NCBI GenBank assembly: GCA_030065575.1
Contig: JASJDZ010000004.1
Coordinates: 62,001-126,000 of the forward strand
Source of the DNA: Acidimicrobiia bacterium
GTDB lineage: Bacteria > Actinomycetota > Acidimicrobiia > Spongiisociales > UBA5794
Length of the DNA stretch: 64,000 nt
Reading direction: 5' to 3'
The notes beneath the pieces are model-generated. The model was given only the letters and a program-made list of their open reading frames with translations, did no database searches and had not been told where the DNA came from. A program made the translations under genes and the position numbers. How positions within the stretch are numbered: the stretch's first letter is position 1; each line of letters opens with the position of its first letter. This document shows, in pieces, positions 5,880-40,691 of this stretch.

Positions 5880-6167
5880 ATGACCATTCTCGATTCTGGT
5901 ACACGATCAAGATTCCTGGACGATTTCCCAGGATGGACGCTCGACGGCGAGATCATCCGAACCACGTACTCGTTTTCAGATTTCAACGAGGCTGTGGGTT
6001 TTGTCGTGCGTGTCGCCCTGATTGCTGAGATCGCCGACCATCACCCTGATATCGACATCCGGTGGAACAAAGTCTCGATTGCGCTGACAACTCATGACCA
6101 CAACGGGCTGACGAACAAAGACGTCGACCTGGCGGCGAGGATCGAAGAGATCAGCAACGGACGCTGA
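5880..6167 (+). CDS. phhB: Pterin-4a-carbinolamine dehydratase
   Basis: A 95-residue protein with the complete PCD/DCoH signature: FPGWTLDGEIIRTTYSF, then AEIADHHPDIDIRWNKV and LTTHDHNGLTNKDVDLA. The HHPD and THD histidines form the active site that dehydrates 4a-hydroxytetrahydrobiopterin in pterin recycling. No aromatic amino acid hydroxylase is visible in the window, so the pterin partner is unknown; bacterial PCD-like proteins also act with molybdopterin or folate-type pterins. It is divergent from gcvP and 43 bases ahead of the cytochrome lipoprotein. Confidence 0.9.
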   Translation: MTILDSGTRSRFLDDFPGWTLDGEIIRTTYSFSDFNEAVGFVVRVALIAEIADHHPDIDIRWNKVSIALTTHDHNGLTNKDVDLAARIEEISNGR

Positions 6168-6210
6168 GCCGAACGCTCCGGTAGCACCGATAACTGTCGA
6201 TAATTGGGCT

Positions 6211-6843
6211 ATGCCACGCATAGCCTTCGCAGTCGTCTTGTTGCTTGCTGCGTGCTCAGGAACAGCCGAGCCCGCCACGACCGCACCAGCGACCAGCCCA
6301 GCGACAACCGCTGCGGAGCCGCCCATCGAGGGTGCCCCGACGCCCACCACAACGACTACGACTGAACCGAGTTCGTCTACGACGAACTCGAACCTCGCCG
6401 AAGGCGAAGCCACAACCACGACAACTGCGGCCCCAACCACGACGACGACCACTTCGACAACGACAACGACCACCACAACGACAACCACGACGGCGGCTCC
6501 CACCACGACAACCACGACAACCACGACAGCGGCTCCTACCACGACCACCGTCGCCGTCGACTACGTGGCATGGGGCTCGGAGCTGGCGACCGACACCGGT
6601 TGTCGCAACTGCCATTCGACCAATGGGAGCGTGGGACTCGGCCCATCGTGGACCGGCCTGGCCGGTTCGACGGTCGCTCTCAGCGATGGGTCCACCGTTA
6701 CGGCGACAGCCTCCTACATCGCCGAGTCGATTCGGTCCCCCGACGCCAAGATCGTTGCGGGGTTCCCGGCGGGCTTGATGCAGGCCATCAGCTTCACTGA
6801 TGAGGAGATCAAGGCACTGGTGGCCTACATCTCCGCCCAGTGA
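6211..6843 (+). CDS. Cytochrome c lipoprotein with threonine-rich stalk
   Basis: A 210-residue exported electron-transfer protein. A short signal peptide ends in a lipobox (LLAAC, Cys15). A long Thr/Ala/Pro stalk (about residues 22-112) follows, then a small class I cytochrome c domain with the heme motif CRNCH at 131-135 and a likely axial Met in FPAGLM at 190. The end (YIAESIRSPDAKIVAGFP) resembles the cytochrome c domain fused to some cytochrome oxidase subunit II proteins, so it may donate electrons to a terminal oxidase. The stalk is encoded by an ACC/ACG/ACA run and shares a 14-base block with the lipoprotein gene at 13509. It ends directly against the convergent gene at 6844 with no gap. 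Confidence 0.9.
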   Translation: MPRIAFAVVLLLAACSGTAEPATTAPATSPATTAAEPPIEGAPTPTTTTTTEPSSSTTNSNLAEGEATTTTTAAPTTTTTTSTTTTTTTTTTTTAAPTTTTTTTTTAAPTTTTVAVDYVAWGSELATDTGCRNCHSTNGSVGLGPSWTGLAGSTVALSDGSTVTATASYIAESIRSPDAKIVAGFPAGLMQAISFTDEEIKALVAYISAQ

Positions 6844-7674
6844 TCAGGGTGACTCACCGTACTTAGCGAGATGCTCGGCGGCGGCGCTACCCATCCAGTC
6901 GTCCCGCTCGATCCGACCCTTGAAGGCGGCCAGGGCGGCAGTCACGTAGACGATGTCGTCTGTCTCGAAGTTCGCAATCTGACGGAAACTGCTGATCCCG
7001 AGTTCCTTGAGTGTCCGTTCCAGCTTCGGGCCTATCCCGTGCACCTTCTTCAAATCGTCGTCGGCGACCGGGCCATCGCCGGCGGTGCGAGCGGCGATCT
7101 CGGCAATGCGGTCGAGCCCCTCCTGCCGGGAAGGAATACCCTCGTCTGGCGACCCGTCGGGTTCCTCGAGCCCTTCATCAGTTTCCGCTGCGGGGTCAAT
7201 CGCCCCGTGCTCCAGTTCAGCGACTTGCGCCTCCAATTCGGCGCGACGCTGCTCGCAGTCCGCGTTGGCCGACTCGAGCTCCGTCAGACGCTGCTGCAAG
7301 ACGGCGGACTCCTGACGCTCCGCCTCGAGATCGGCCTTCAGTTGCCCCAACCCGGATTCGTCGGAACCTGCGGCCTCGAGCTCAGCCAGAGAGGCCTGCG
7401 TTGATTCGAGCTCAGCATGGAGATCGCTGACTCGCTGCTGTTCACCTTTGAGCTCCAGGTGAACCTTGTCGAGCGCCTCGTTGCTGTCGATGAGACGGTA
7501 TTCGGCCCTGCGGGTCAGCTCCTGTTGGGCCGCAAGGTCGGCCTCGAAGCTCTCGGCAAAGGACTCCTTCTGGAACCAGCGGATGAACACATAGGCAATC
7601 GCAAAACCGACCAAGGTCGCAAGCAGCATGTAGAAGACGATCTCGGCTGCCGCCCACTCAACTCCGTCCAACAT
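6844..7674 (-). CDS. Membrane-anchored coiled-coil protein with C-terminal helix-hairpin-helix domain
   Basis: A 276-residue protein. One transmembrane helix (about residues 11-33) is followed by a long Glu/Leu/Arg-rich coiled coil (about 45-165), an acidic linker, and a C-terminal helix-hairpin-helix-like domain (DDLKKVHGIGPKLERTLKELG, shown here in pieces: VHGIGPKLE and ELGISSFRQIA). This C-terminal type binds DNA or proteins in other families, including extensions of ribosomal or respiratory-complex proteins. It starts immediately after the stop of the BON-OmpA gene, so the two form an operon and probably act together at the envelope. The exact function is unknown. Confidence 0.8.
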   Translation of the reverse strand: MLDGVEWAAAEIVFYMLLATLVGFAIAYVFIRWFQKESFAESFEADLAAQQELTRRAEYRLIDSNEALDKVHLELKGEQQRVSDLHAELESTQASLAELEAAGSDESGLGQLKADLEAERQESAVLQQRLTELESANADCEQRRAELEAQVAELEHGAIDPAAETDEGLEEPDGSPDEGIPSRQEGLDRIAEIAARTAGDGPVADDDLKKVHGIGPKLERTLKELGISSFRQIANFETDDIVYVTAALAAFKGRIERDDWMGSAAAEHLAKYGESP

Positions 7675-9165
7675 CTATTGCTCTCCTTGTTCGATCAGGA
7701 ACTCGATCCTGCGGTTTTCCGCTCTGCCTTCTTCGGTTGAATTGTCGGCAATTGGCTGCTCGTCACCGTACCCGATTGCTCTCAACCTCTCCGCCTCTAT
7801 TCCCTGCGACACCAGATAGGCAACGACGGCCTCAGCGCGCTCCGCAGACAGGAGCAGGAGAGCGGTGGAATCACCTTGGTCGTCGGTATGCACGGCGACC
7901 GTCAAGCGGATGTCGGGATATGCCTGGATGATCGTCACGGCCTCATCAAGCGCGGCCGCTCCTTCCACTGTCACAGTCGCTTCCCCGGCCCCAAAGACTT
8001 CGACGCTCTGGATGAGCTCGGTGAGCTGGAGAGCAACCGCGACGGGATCCAGCTGAATCTCAGTAATCACGACCAGCTGTCCGGAAACGACCTCGGCGGC
8101 CAACACATCAATGGCATTGACGAGATCCAGGTCGGTGCTCGTTCCGGCGATTGTCACCCGGCCCTCGTTGATCTCAATCGTCCACGGGTCGAGGCGCGTC
8201 ACAACATCGAGTAATCCGTCGATCGAATCGAGCCAGTTCGCCCCGGCTACCTCGCTGACTCGGATCGAGTTGGTGATGGTCGTGCTCGGATGAAGGCGCC
8301 GGGCCGCGTCCGCAATGGCATCAACAGTCTCCTGGCTCGGGACCCGACCCCGCAGCGTGAGTGCATTCCCCGATCCCGATGCGCTGAATGCCGGTGCGGG
8401 CAGTACTGCATGCGAGAGATCGGATGAGAATGCCACTGTTTCGCCCAGTACGAGCTCTAGCTCGCGCTTCATCTCTTCCCCAACGGAGTCCGAGATGACT
8501 TCGCCCTCGAGAACGAATCCGGAATCGTCGACAGCGAAGCCACCGCTGCGCAGGTCGTCGAGGTGGACAAAGACATCCTTGATACGGCCCAGCCAGGGGG
8601 CGTCGGCGACGTTCTCGGCGATGACGATCGCATCGACGATGCGGTCAGAGCCGTATTGCTCACGAGCGGCCGCAACCAGGGCCTCGCCCTGCGCGGCGTC
8701 CGCCAGCGTCGCCTGCAGTGAAACCGCATTTCCGACAAGGCGGAAAGCTACCCGCGGACGAACAATCTCGGGAGCGGGCGGCTCGACAACGATCAACCGG
8801 CTGTTGACGAGGCGGACGCCGGGAATCGCATCAATGGCTGCGATGACCTGGGCCTCTTCTTCCTCGCTATCTACCGATCCGTAGAGCGTCGCATCACGGC
8901 CGGCGATGTCGACAGTTACGTCGAGGCCGGTGTCGTCCAGGTAGCTGCGGGTGGCTTCCCGGAGTTTGGACTCTGCGTTACCGATCCCCCAGGCCAGTGC
9001 GACCAGGATTACCACCAACCAGAGCCCTGCCAACCACAGGAGAACCCGTGGTACGCGTCGATATCCGGTCCAGCTAATGGTCAACGACCCACTCCTACCT
9101 GCTGCCAAATCGAAGTTAGCTGTGGTGCCATCGCTATGCCACCACAACGCGCTGCGAATGCCCAA
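7675..9165 (-). CDS. BON-OmpA envelope protein (ArfA/OmpATb-like)
   Basis: A 496-residue protein. One N-terminal transmembrane helix (about residues 38-60, VLLWLAGLWLVVILVALAWG) is followed by several BON-type modules, which bind phospholipid or membranes, and a C-terminal OmpA-like domain that binds peptidoglycan (SAERAEAVVAYLVSQGIEAE, then GYGDEQPIADNSTEEGRAEN). The order anchor-BON-OmpA matches mycobacterial ArfA (OmpATb), but it is longer and has more BON repeats. A role linking membrane and cell wall is likely. The start is uncertain: GTG or TTG codons closer to the helix are possible. It is the first gene of the operon with the coiled-coil/HhH protein and is divergent from dnaK. Confidence 0.82.
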   Translation of the reverse strand: MGIRSALWWHSDGTTANFDLAAGRSGSLTISWTGYRRVPRVLLWLAGLWLVVILVALAWGIGNAESKLREATRSYLDDTGLDVTVDIAGRDATLYGSVDSEEEEAQVIAAIDAIPGVRLVNSRLIVVEPPAPEIVRPRVAFRLVGNAVSLQATLADAAQGEALVAAAREQYGSDRIVDAIVIAENVADAPWLGRIKDVFVHLDDLRSGGFAVDDSGFVLEGEVISDSVGEEMKRELELVLGETVAFSSDLSHAVLPAPAFSASGSGNALTLRGRVPSQETVDAIADAARRLHPSTTITNSIRVSEVAGANWLDSIDGLLDVVTRLDPWTIEINEGRVTIAGTSTDLDLVNAIDVLAAEVVSGQLVVITEIQLDPVAVALQLTELIQSVEVFGAGEATVTVEGAAALDEAVTIIQAYPDIRLTVAVHTDDQGDSTALLLLSAERAEAVVAYLVSQGIEAERLRAIGYGDEQPIADNSTEEGRAENRRIEFLIEQGEQ

Positions 9166-38292: not shown

Positions 38293-38952
38293 ATGCCGAT
38301 AGGCAAAGTGATGAGTGCGCTCGATTCCATCAAACCAGAGACGACAGTCGAGGAAATTCGCGGGGAAGCGATTGCCCAGCTCAAGTCGGCGCGGGAGCTC
38401 GCCAAGAAGGTGCGAGCAGAGGCCGTCAGCGAGCTGGAGGATGCGCGTTCCCGGGTACGTCGCATCGCTCTGCGTGAGGAGGAGATGGCTGAGCGATGGG
38501 CAAAGCTGCTCGAGGCCGAGAATCAGATGAAGGTCTCGTCCTCACCTCTCCCCGGGTCCGCCGCCCCAGATGACATCGTCCGAGAAGCGCAGCGCGAGGC
38601 TGCCGCAATCATCGAGCGGGCTCATACAGAAGCGCGCGGCATCCGGGAGGACGCAATGCGTCTGCTTGCGGTCGCCGAAGGCGAGAAGGCTGAGTCGCGC
38701 GAAATCGCCCAGAGCGAAACCGAGCGGGCAATGATCGAGGCACAGGAGCTGCGCTCGCAGGCTGAGGAGGAGGCAGAGCGCCTCCGCCGCGATGCGGAAC
38801 GTCTCTCGGGGAGCGGCGACACGAGCATCTACTCCAAGCGGCGAGGCAGGAAGCTGCCGCGCATCGGTGAGAGCGCCAACCATCTGCTCTCTGAGATGTC
38901 CGATCTCCGGGCCAAGTCAAACGAAGACGACGAGAACCGTCAGGTCGTCTGA
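38293..38952 (+). CDS. Coiled-coil protein, DivIVA-like
   Basis: A 219-residue, highly charged protein with two long coiled-coil stretches (about 20-80 and 95-175), e.g. KSARELAKKVRAEAVSELED and IIERAHTEARGIREDAMRLL, resembling the DivIVA/SepIVA or ATP-synthase-b type helices of actinobacteria. The basic end (YSKRRGRKLPRIGESANH) may bind nucleic acid or membrane. ATG at 38293 or 38311. No exact family was assigned. Confidence 0.75.
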   Translation: MPIGKVMSALDSIKPETTVEEIRGEAIAQLKSARELAKKVRAEAVSELEDARSRVRRIALREEEMAERWAKLLEAENQMKVSSSPLPGSAAPDDIVREAQREAAAIIERAHTEARGIREDAMRLLAVAEGEKAESREIAQSETERAMIEAQELRSQAEEEAERLRRDAERLSGSGDTSIYSKRRGRKLPRIGESANHLLSEMSDLRAKSNEDDENRQVV

Positions 38953-38970
38953 GTAGTCCCCAGTATCGAA

Positions 38971-39016
38971 GTCCTGCGTAGATTCCGGCGCCATTACGCC
39001 GCGTGCTACGCCAGAC
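38971..39016. repeat. Intergenic palindromic element, TCTGGCGTA type (copy B)
   Basis: Left arm GTCCTGCGTAG (38971-38981) is a two-mismatch version of the family arm; right arm CTACGCCAGAC (39006-39016) is exact. The core has CGGCG (38986-38990)/CGCCG (38997-39001) and shares ATTACGCCGCG with copy A's ATAACGCCGCG. It lies between convergent genes. Confidence 0.7.
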
Positions 39017-39022
39017 GCATAG

Positions 39023-40390
39023 TTACCCCTCGCTCGCGGGCGGGGACGCGACCAGTTCGAAGAGCATGGCAGCGGGAGAATCGGCGATGCGCACCACCTT
39101 CATCTCGATTCCGTACCACTGGACACCGCTCTTGGTCTGGTTGTTGAGCCAGGCAAGGGCCTGCAGCTGCTCATCGAGGAACTTGGCCGATACCAGGGCA
39201 ACAGTGGCTGCCCCTGATGATGCGGCCATACCAAGGGCCCGTCCCAGATCCGAGTCCTCGGCAGTTGCGCTCTGCGACGACACCACGACAACGTCATCCC
39301 CCGTGTCATCACGACCGACAACGCCGGTTGCGCTCTTGGTGGTGAACTGGCGAGCTTCGGACAAGCCGGCATCCAAGCCGAGCACATCCCCAAGTTGACG
39401 AGAGTGTGCGAGGAACCAGGGAGCGAAGTCCTCGGCACCTTCCGCCCACACGCTCTCTGGATCCACCAGTTCCAGTGTTCCGAAGTCCATCATCACCCTT
39501 CCTTGCTGGCTGTCTCGCTGCGGCTGCGCGGCCGCGGCAACGGGTTCCTGCTCAATCGGTTCGGCTTCTACGTCGGCCGGGCTCCAGGTCGTCTCTGCCG
39601 CGTCGGCCGCGGGCTCGTCGGCGGGAGCCATTGCATCAACCTCAGGGGCACCTTCCTCGGGCGGCACCGAGTCGGGCACGATTGCCTCCGGCTCGGACGC
39701 GGCGACAACAGCGCCATCGGCCGGCGGCACGGAGTCCACGATCGGAGGCAAGGCAGCGTCCGCCGGCGCAGGCACATCTCCGCCGGACTGCGCAGCTGCT
39801 TCGAGAGCCATAGCTTCGATGTTTGCCTCCGCCTCGCCCCACGATTGCTCAGCCCCCGGCAGGGCACTCTCGGCAAGGCCTTCGGAGACACCGTTGTATG
39901 CGTCCCACGGCGACGGGGCGACACTGACTGGATCTCCACCAACTTTGGTTCCCGAGGTCGTCCCCGCGTCGGTGATCTCAGGTCGTTCCTCGTCCGCTTC
40001 GTCGGAAGCGACCTCCGCCGGGTCGGAAACGAGCTCGGGATTGGCGTCTGGCTCGGGGGTACCCGCAGATACTTGGGCTTCAGAATCCCCGGGGAACGAC
40101 TGGCCAACCTCAGTGACCGGCTCATCATCGGCGGCAATAGCGCCGGTCGTTTCGATTCGGGCCACAGACTGCTCGACTTCCACGACTCGAGCTGCATGCA
40201 AGATGTCACCGCTGGTGATTCGACCACCCTCACCTGAGCCCTCGATCATGTTCACATCAATCAGCCCGCTCTCAACGAGCCGTCGGGCGCGGGGAGACAG
40301 ATCCTCGAGAACGAGGTGCGGCGGCAGGCCGGAGGACTCTCCCTCGTTTCTGTATGAGCTCTTGCGTCGACGCGAGCGTCTCCGAGCCAC
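39023..40390 (-). CDS. E3-binding-domain protein with degenerate PD-(D/E)XK-like C-terminal domain
   Basis: A 455-residue protein. A basic start (MARRRSRRRKSS) leads to an E3-binding/PSBD fold (about 30-66: LSPRARRLVESGLIDVNMIE, GSGEGGRITSGDIL). A long acidic, Ala/Pro-rich low-complexity linker (about 75-298) follows. The end (299-455) resembles the nuclease-like core found in DUF4268-type proteins: EDFAPWFLAHSRQLGDVLG, DSDLGRALGMAASSGAATVA, LAWLNNQTKSGVQWYGIEM, and VVRIADSPAAMLFELV. In that core the ENQ-type metal residues are replaced by VVSSQSATAED, so nuclease activity is doubtful. No lipoyl or acyltransferase domain is present, so the PSBD is not in a dehydrogenase complex; DNA binding is an alternative, since Lsr2 has a related C-terminal fold. 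Start is GTG at 40390 after GGAGG. Confidence 0.75.
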   Translation of the reverse strand: MARRRSRRRKSSYRNEGESSGLPPHLVLEDLSPRARRLVESGLIDVNMIEGSGEGGRITSGDILHAARVVEVEQSVARIETTGAIAADDEPVTEVGQSFPGDSEAQVSAGTPEPDANPELVSDPAEVASDEADEERPEITDAGTTSGTKVGGDPVSVAPSPWDAYNGVSEGLAESALPGAEQSWGEAEANIEAMALEAAAQSGGDVPAPADAALPPIVDSVPPADGAVVAASEPEAIVPDSVPPEEGAPEVDAMAPADEPAADAAETTWSPADVEAEPIEQEPVAAAAQPQRDSQQGRVMMDFGTLELVDPESVWAEGAEDFAPWFLAHSRQLGDVLGLDAGLSEARQFTTKSATGVVGRDDTGDDVVVVSSQSATAEDSDLGRALGMAASSGAATVALVSAKFLDEQLQALAWLNNQTKSGVQWYGIEMKVVRIADSPAAMLFELVASPPASEG

Positions 40391-40565
40391 GACAACGCCT
40401 CCTCGGGTCGGGGGGACTAGTGCCTGTACTCACTCTCGAATCGGACGATGAGACGGCCGCCTTGAGCAGTCTGTTGGCGTCCCTCCCCCTTCGTTCTACG
40501 TTGCAGTTGACCGCGGCGCCGCAGCATCGGAGCCAACCTCTGGATATCCCTGCCGGAGTGGCCGA

Positions 40566-40691
40566 TCAAGCGGCCCTTGCGACCTCGTTGCCCCGGCACA
40601 CGGCACAGGCGGAATCGGGGCAGCGCTCCACTACGGTGAAGCTGAACCCGGCTGCAGCAAGCAACTCTTCAATGCTCATCTTGTCTTCCAT
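40566..40691 (-). CDS. Possible 41-residue Cys-containing small protein
   Basis: A short frame reading MEDKMSIEELLAAAGFSF and ending VERCPDSACAVCRGNEVARA plus Ala; the C-x5-C-x2-C cluster suggests metal binding or a redox site. A second ATG (40679) has GGAAG upstream. The segment lies in a 397-base gap between the E3BD gene (start 40390) and the dehydratase (40788), which otherwise holds nothing recognised. Support is weak: there is no homology evidence, and it could be chance. Confidence 0.35.
   Translation of the reverse strand: MEDKMSIEELLAAAGFSFTVVERCPDSACAVCRGNEVARAA

Follow-up and report, generated by a model that had tools for sequence, protein, structure and literature searches.

A genus-wide Acidimicrobiia protein joining an E2-type PSBD to a nuclease-like domain without its metal site, a probable adaptor

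The closest described relatives of the two ends of the 455-aa protein studied here are the PDC-S11/DUF4268 candidate defence nucleases and the peripheral-subunit-binding domain (PSBD, PF02817) of the E2 subunit of 2-oxoacid dehydrogenases. Residues 301-451 of the protein align with the N-terminal half of the former, but the D, E-N and HxH residues have been lost, the DUF4268 half is absent, a PSBD and linkers have been gained, and the protein is fixed across a genus, whereas PDC-S11 is patchy. The PSBD matches that of E2 over the full domain, with the same helix-loop-helix pattern; in contrast to E2, the lipoyl and acyltransferase domains are absent, the GGR arginine is not kept, the TRxD of E2 has become TSGD, and there is an additional conserved helix (HAARxxExEQSVxRIE). 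Among solved structures, the mismatch endonuclease EndoMS/NucS has the closest fold to that predicted for the C-terminal domain, but the identity is 13%, the active-site residues are absent and the nuclease domain alone is held in common. PD-(D/E)XK-like folds that lack metal ligands and are kept for another role have been described: the N-terminal domain of RPB5 is, as cited in PMC1185551, a dead nuclease fold used in protein-protein contact, and the dead PD-(D/E)XK domain of RecC can still contact DNA (PMC1185551). The C-terminal domain of the 455-aa protein differs from both in lineage and context.

The gene lies in a window of 64,000 nucleotides, by which the whole stretch of DNA analysed is meant, at the coordinates originally given for it; it has a good ribosome-binding site, and its features are listed in Table 1. 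It was kept full-length in 7/7 genomes of its genus. The domain pair was conserved, as a homologue search recovered the fusion from all of these genomes, and the 43 other genomes of the family yielded no fusion and no dead domain. A scan of genome contigs returned five loci, each of which matched a contig of a genus genome. The gene order around the 455-aa gene was common to the genus. The adjoining rhomboid gene was family-wide; in other genera, other genes were present 3' of it, among them ORFs identified as PurF/PurM-like by eye alone, and no intermediate representing an ancestral version was found at the syntenic locus in those genera. A literature search did not find the combination of a PSBD and a dead PDC-S11 domain described. 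The architecture is new, although its parts are known, and the kind of case, an exapted dead enzyme, is ordinary but unusually clear.

Table 1. Positions of the features of the 455-aa gene and of its convergent neighbour in the window.
Feature	Position	Strand	Evidence
Whole gene with its stop codon, 455 aa from a GTG start	39023..40390	-	ORF call; 7/7 genus genomes
Shine-Dalgarno GAGGAGG, 7 nt 5' of GTG	40398..40404	-	Sequence read
N-terminal tail, residues 1-30; first 13 = MARRRSRRRKSSY, basic, invariant but one S/gap	40301..40390	-	Alignment, charge
PSBD (E3_binding) and C-terminal helix extension, residues 31-81	40148..40300	-	PF02817 E = 1.9e-7; dN/dS 0.08; AF2 helices
Acidic disordered linker 1, residues 82-159, species-variable length	39914..40147	-	dN/dS 0.53; net charge; low pLDDT
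Conserved mid-linker motif, residues 160-200 (WxxYNGxxxGxxxxAxxGAxQSWGEAEA)	39791..39913	-	Invariant positions; dN/dS 0.12; low-confidence helix 177-201
Acidic disordered linker 2, residues 201-299	39494..39790	-	dN/dS 0.59; AF2 full-length model
Predicted PD-(D/E)XK domain, dead, PDC-S11/DUF4268 lineage, residues 300-450	39041..39493	-	PADLOC E = 3.8e-31; alignments; AF2; structural alignment; tree
Convergent gene for 219-aa coiled-coil protein, candidate partner	38293..38952	+	Basic KRRGRKLPRIG C-terminus; same phyletic range

E3_binding (PF02817) was the sole Pfam match of the protein, at residues 32-64 (31.6 bits, cut-off 23.7), and it scored above the cut-off in 7/7 genus members. No Pfam match was obtained for lipoyl or 2-oxoacid_dh acyltransferase domains; all members of the family that were compared lacked the motifs of these domains, the compared E2s of the genus had them, and no homologue of the protein carried an acyltransferase. 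The original prediction had described a PSBD pattern without these domains and had concluded that the protein is not a dehydrogenase-complex subunit. Both statements held, as the E2-type PSBD sits outside any dehydrogenase subunit and the first segment does not belong to an acyltransferase. The SPxxRR helix and the G[ST]G..G loop were those of the E2 type, and the domain resembles E2 rather than Lsr2. When 396 genomes of the phylum were searched with the PSBD profile, one other match below 1e-7 was obtained, to a protein of 414 aa that carries the acyltransferase motif HxxxDG; the matches in the 43 other family genomes were weak, and E2-like where inspected. The AF2 model of the full-length protein (6 rows; pLDDT 53.7) presented helices at residues 33-40, 46-49 and 60-86, consistent with a folded PSBD extended by a long helix that reaches residue 86, followed by disordered linkers, the low-confidence helix at 177-201 and a folded C-terminal domain.

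The C-terminus of the protein had no match of its own in Pfam and was given no direct name by NCBIfam; PHROGs gave no match for the protein, and the C-terminal profile had no significant match among PDB sequences. The PADLOC profile PDC-S11 (PDLC04911) matched residues 301-451 with positions 3-155 of its 318. In full-length relatives the nuclease-like domain comes first and DUF4268 (PF14088), which was present in five full-length relatives, comes second. As this second domain is absent from the 455-aa protein, its C-terminus represents the half of DUF4268 proteins that is nuclease-like, not DUF4268 itself; the DUF4268-type core that had been proposed was correct as to the PDC-S11 lineage, but covers this half only. 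The closest relative of the domain was L011, with 37% identity.

For the active site, the copies of the window and the genus were aligned with 24 relatives, of which 19 came from viral contigs and 5 from Acidimicrobiia genomes. The D and E-N residues were kept in 24/24 relatives outside the genus, and the HxH pair in nearly all of them. In the 455-aa protein, the D is replaced by G356, the E by S371, the N by S372 and the HxH pair by D379/D381, and the same G, S, S and D, D were found in all seven genus members. The following residue was Q, K or R in the genus, and Q in the relatives apart from an L in one. The reading of VVSSQSATAED in place of an ENQ-type metal site was thus exactly right, and no metal site would be expected to form at the usual place in this domain. 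In each genus genome the dead copy was the sole PDC-S11 domain found, although several of the MAGs are incomplete and could be missing an intact copy. A function as regulator of an intact PDC-S11 paralogue is disfavoured, since no other PDC-S11 was found in the genus genomes.

AF2 prediction of the C-terminus from a 25-row alignment (pLDDT 80.8) gave the order alpha-beta-beta-beta-alpha-beta. When the Foldseek candidates were structurally re-aligned with VIA-align, EndoMS/NucS ranked first (Z = 12.3; 2.1 Å over 102 residues), followed by several restriction enzymes (AspBHI, MspJI, FokI) and RPB5 chains. By E-value, no Foldseek match was significant (best 4.8e-3, for acetyl-CoA carboxylase; 2.8e-2 for EndoMS), so the assignment of the fold rests on the structural Z-score and on sequence homology. 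By this model the C-terminus is predicted to fold as a PD-(D/E)XK core, in agreement with the restriction-endonuclease-like fold expected originally.

The dN/dS ratio was calculated by the Nei-Gojobori method over all pairs, with synonymous sites near saturation and absolute values that are rough: 0.041 for the C-terminal domain, 0.079 for the PSBD, 0.116 for the mid-linker motif, 0.33 for the tail, and 0.53 and 0.59 for linkers 1 and 2. The contrast between segments was large despite this near-saturation, and pN/pS agreed (0.105, 0.174 and 0.251 for the C-terminal domain, PSBD and motif, and 0.54-0.76 for the tail and linkers). The domain that had been called decayed has lost its active site, but is under stronger constraint than any other part of the protein. 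In the tree, the dead clade was monophyletic (100/100), and its sister was an intact relative from a different family of the same order; the stem of the dead clade measured 2.72 changes/site and its tip branches at most 0.11. A long stem followed by short, constrained tips is the picture of a change of function and then fixation, not of decay. The case is a clean one: a domain of a candidate defence nuclease has lost its active site and come under strong constraint within a protein found throughout a genus, and intact relatives, dead clade and long stem branch are all visible.

The N-terminus, MARRR(S)RRRKSSY, carried a charge of about +8 in its first 13 residues, and the tail as a whole +1 to +5 over about 30 residues. 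The basic tail that had been noted from the outset is this N-terminus. The long acidic linker was confirmed, with a net charge of -12 to -58 per segment; the conserved motif within it, at residues ~160-200, had been missed. In the L035 copy (5959-7839) the linker was expanded (627 aa in total) with near-identical AEPEPEPV-type repeats, and the end domains were unchanged.

As catalytic residues are lacking, while the two folded ends and one linker motif are constrained and the acidic spacers are flexible, the protein is read most simply as an adaptor. The protein is probably a non-enzymatic adaptor or scaffold that was exapted in the ancestor of one Acidimicrobiia genus, a function suggested by constraint in a protein without a catalytic site. 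It would have arisen when a defence protein of the PDC-S11 (DUF4268-type) lineage contributed its nuclease-like half, which was joined through long flexible acidic linkers to an E2-type PSBD with a basic N-terminal tail. Both end domains would be binding modules, the PSBD a small docking knob and the PD-(D/E)XK core a protein-interaction or dimerisation surface, by analogy with the dead nuclease domain of RPB5; the linkers between them would act as a tether, and the mid-linker motif may be a third short binding site. The protein is also an instance of a PSBD employed outside the dehydrogenase complexes. In automated annotation it risks being labelled wrongly, as a fragment of E2 or as a defence system of the PDC-S11 kind, although neither active site is present.

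The first candidate partner would be the 219-aa coiled-coil protein encoded by the convergent gene, which was present in 7/7 genus genomes and in 0/43 elsewhere in the family, and which has a conserved basic C-terminus (KRRGRKLPRIG...LLSEMSDLRAKS). Shared ancestry alone could explain this co-occurrence, which is only a lead. No partner, operon or phenotype of the 455-aa protein was found, and the coiled-coil neighbour is convergent and not co-transcribed. The window has about 70 bp between the two genes (38952-39023), L035 several hundred bp and L036 ~1 kb, so that the length of this gap varies widely. A more extensive proposal, tentative and rather unlikely, is that the dead anti-phage nuclease and the metabolic docking domain form, with the coiled-coil partner, a genus-specific core scaffold that organises an undescribed structure, for example one in which metabolic complexes would be linked to the nucleoid or envelope.

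A protein-protein adaptor is more economical than the nucleoid or DNA-associated role of the original prediction, in which the tail and the PSBD would bind DNA as Lsr2 does and the dead nuclease domain would keep a DNA contact or bridge complexes. The C-terminal DNA-binding domain of Lsr2 shares a PSBD-like fold, the basic N-terminus is invariant, and the predicted C-terminal fold is that of DNA-acting enzymes, including EndoMS/NucS, AspBHI, MspJI and FokI. The dead domain of RecC also offers a precedent for DNA contact (PMC1185551). The PSBD, however, scores E2-like and is neutral to acidic (-1 to -2 with its helix), and neither an Lsr2-type RGR nor an AT-hook is conserved, the GGR position being R, K or S. 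The C-terminal domain has a net charge of -9 to -13, which argues weakly, as the active relatives are equally acidic. The Lsr2 dimerisation domain (PF11774) had no match in the 455-aa protein or in any of the 50 family genomes, and the absence of Lsr2 from the whole family leaves the analogy without genetic support. Replacement of Lsr2 specifically in this genus was rejected on the same result. For the basic tail, binding to nucleic acid or to membrane is equally conceivable. A DNA-associated role, being argued from analogy, therefore appears weakly disfavoured and is unlikely.

It is doubtful, and indeed improbable, that the PSBD serves to dock dihydrolipoamide dehydrogenase (or E1) and so ties a dehydrogenase complex to another structure. 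The E2-type helix and loop would suit such docking, and the genus genomes hold E2 genes with lipoyl and HxxxDG motifs, so that E3 is expected. The GGR loop arginine, however, is R in 21/21 E2 PSBDs and R, K or S in the 455-aa family, which makes canonical E3 docking doubtful. The PSBD charge is 0 to -2 in this family against +1 to +2 in the genus E2s, the protein has no lipoyl or catalytic domain, and no pdh or odh gene was found among the neighbours examined.

A retained function in phage defence, in which the dead domain would sense, or serve as a decoy for, inhibitors that phages direct against PDC-S11, is very improbable: the PDC-S11 ancestry is clear and such relatives were found on viral contigs and plasmids, but the protein is fixed in the genus with conserved synteny and is not patchy, its very low dN/dS bears no arms-race signature, and the function of PDC-S11 itself is only a candidate. 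An active enzyme with a relocated active site is hardly credible, as other residues stand in place of every metal-binding acid and of both histidines and none of the known alternative sites was recognised, even though new invariant polar residues (FTTKSATG, VVVVSS, EDSDLG/DDSDLG) cluster, under constraint, at the former active-site positions.

Upstream of the 455-aa gene and on the same strand, positions 40566-40691 (-) encode a 41-aa microprotein, MEDKMSIEELLAAAGFSFTVVERCPDSACAVCRGNEVARAA, with a CPx3CxxC motif, and its profile matched 39/138 genomes of the order. A DsbA-like CSWCWG protein, recognised by eye, is encoded at L036:4347-5048, with matching stretches in L034 and L035. In these three loci the DsbA-like gene lies between the microprotein and PSBD genes; it is absent in the window and in L037.
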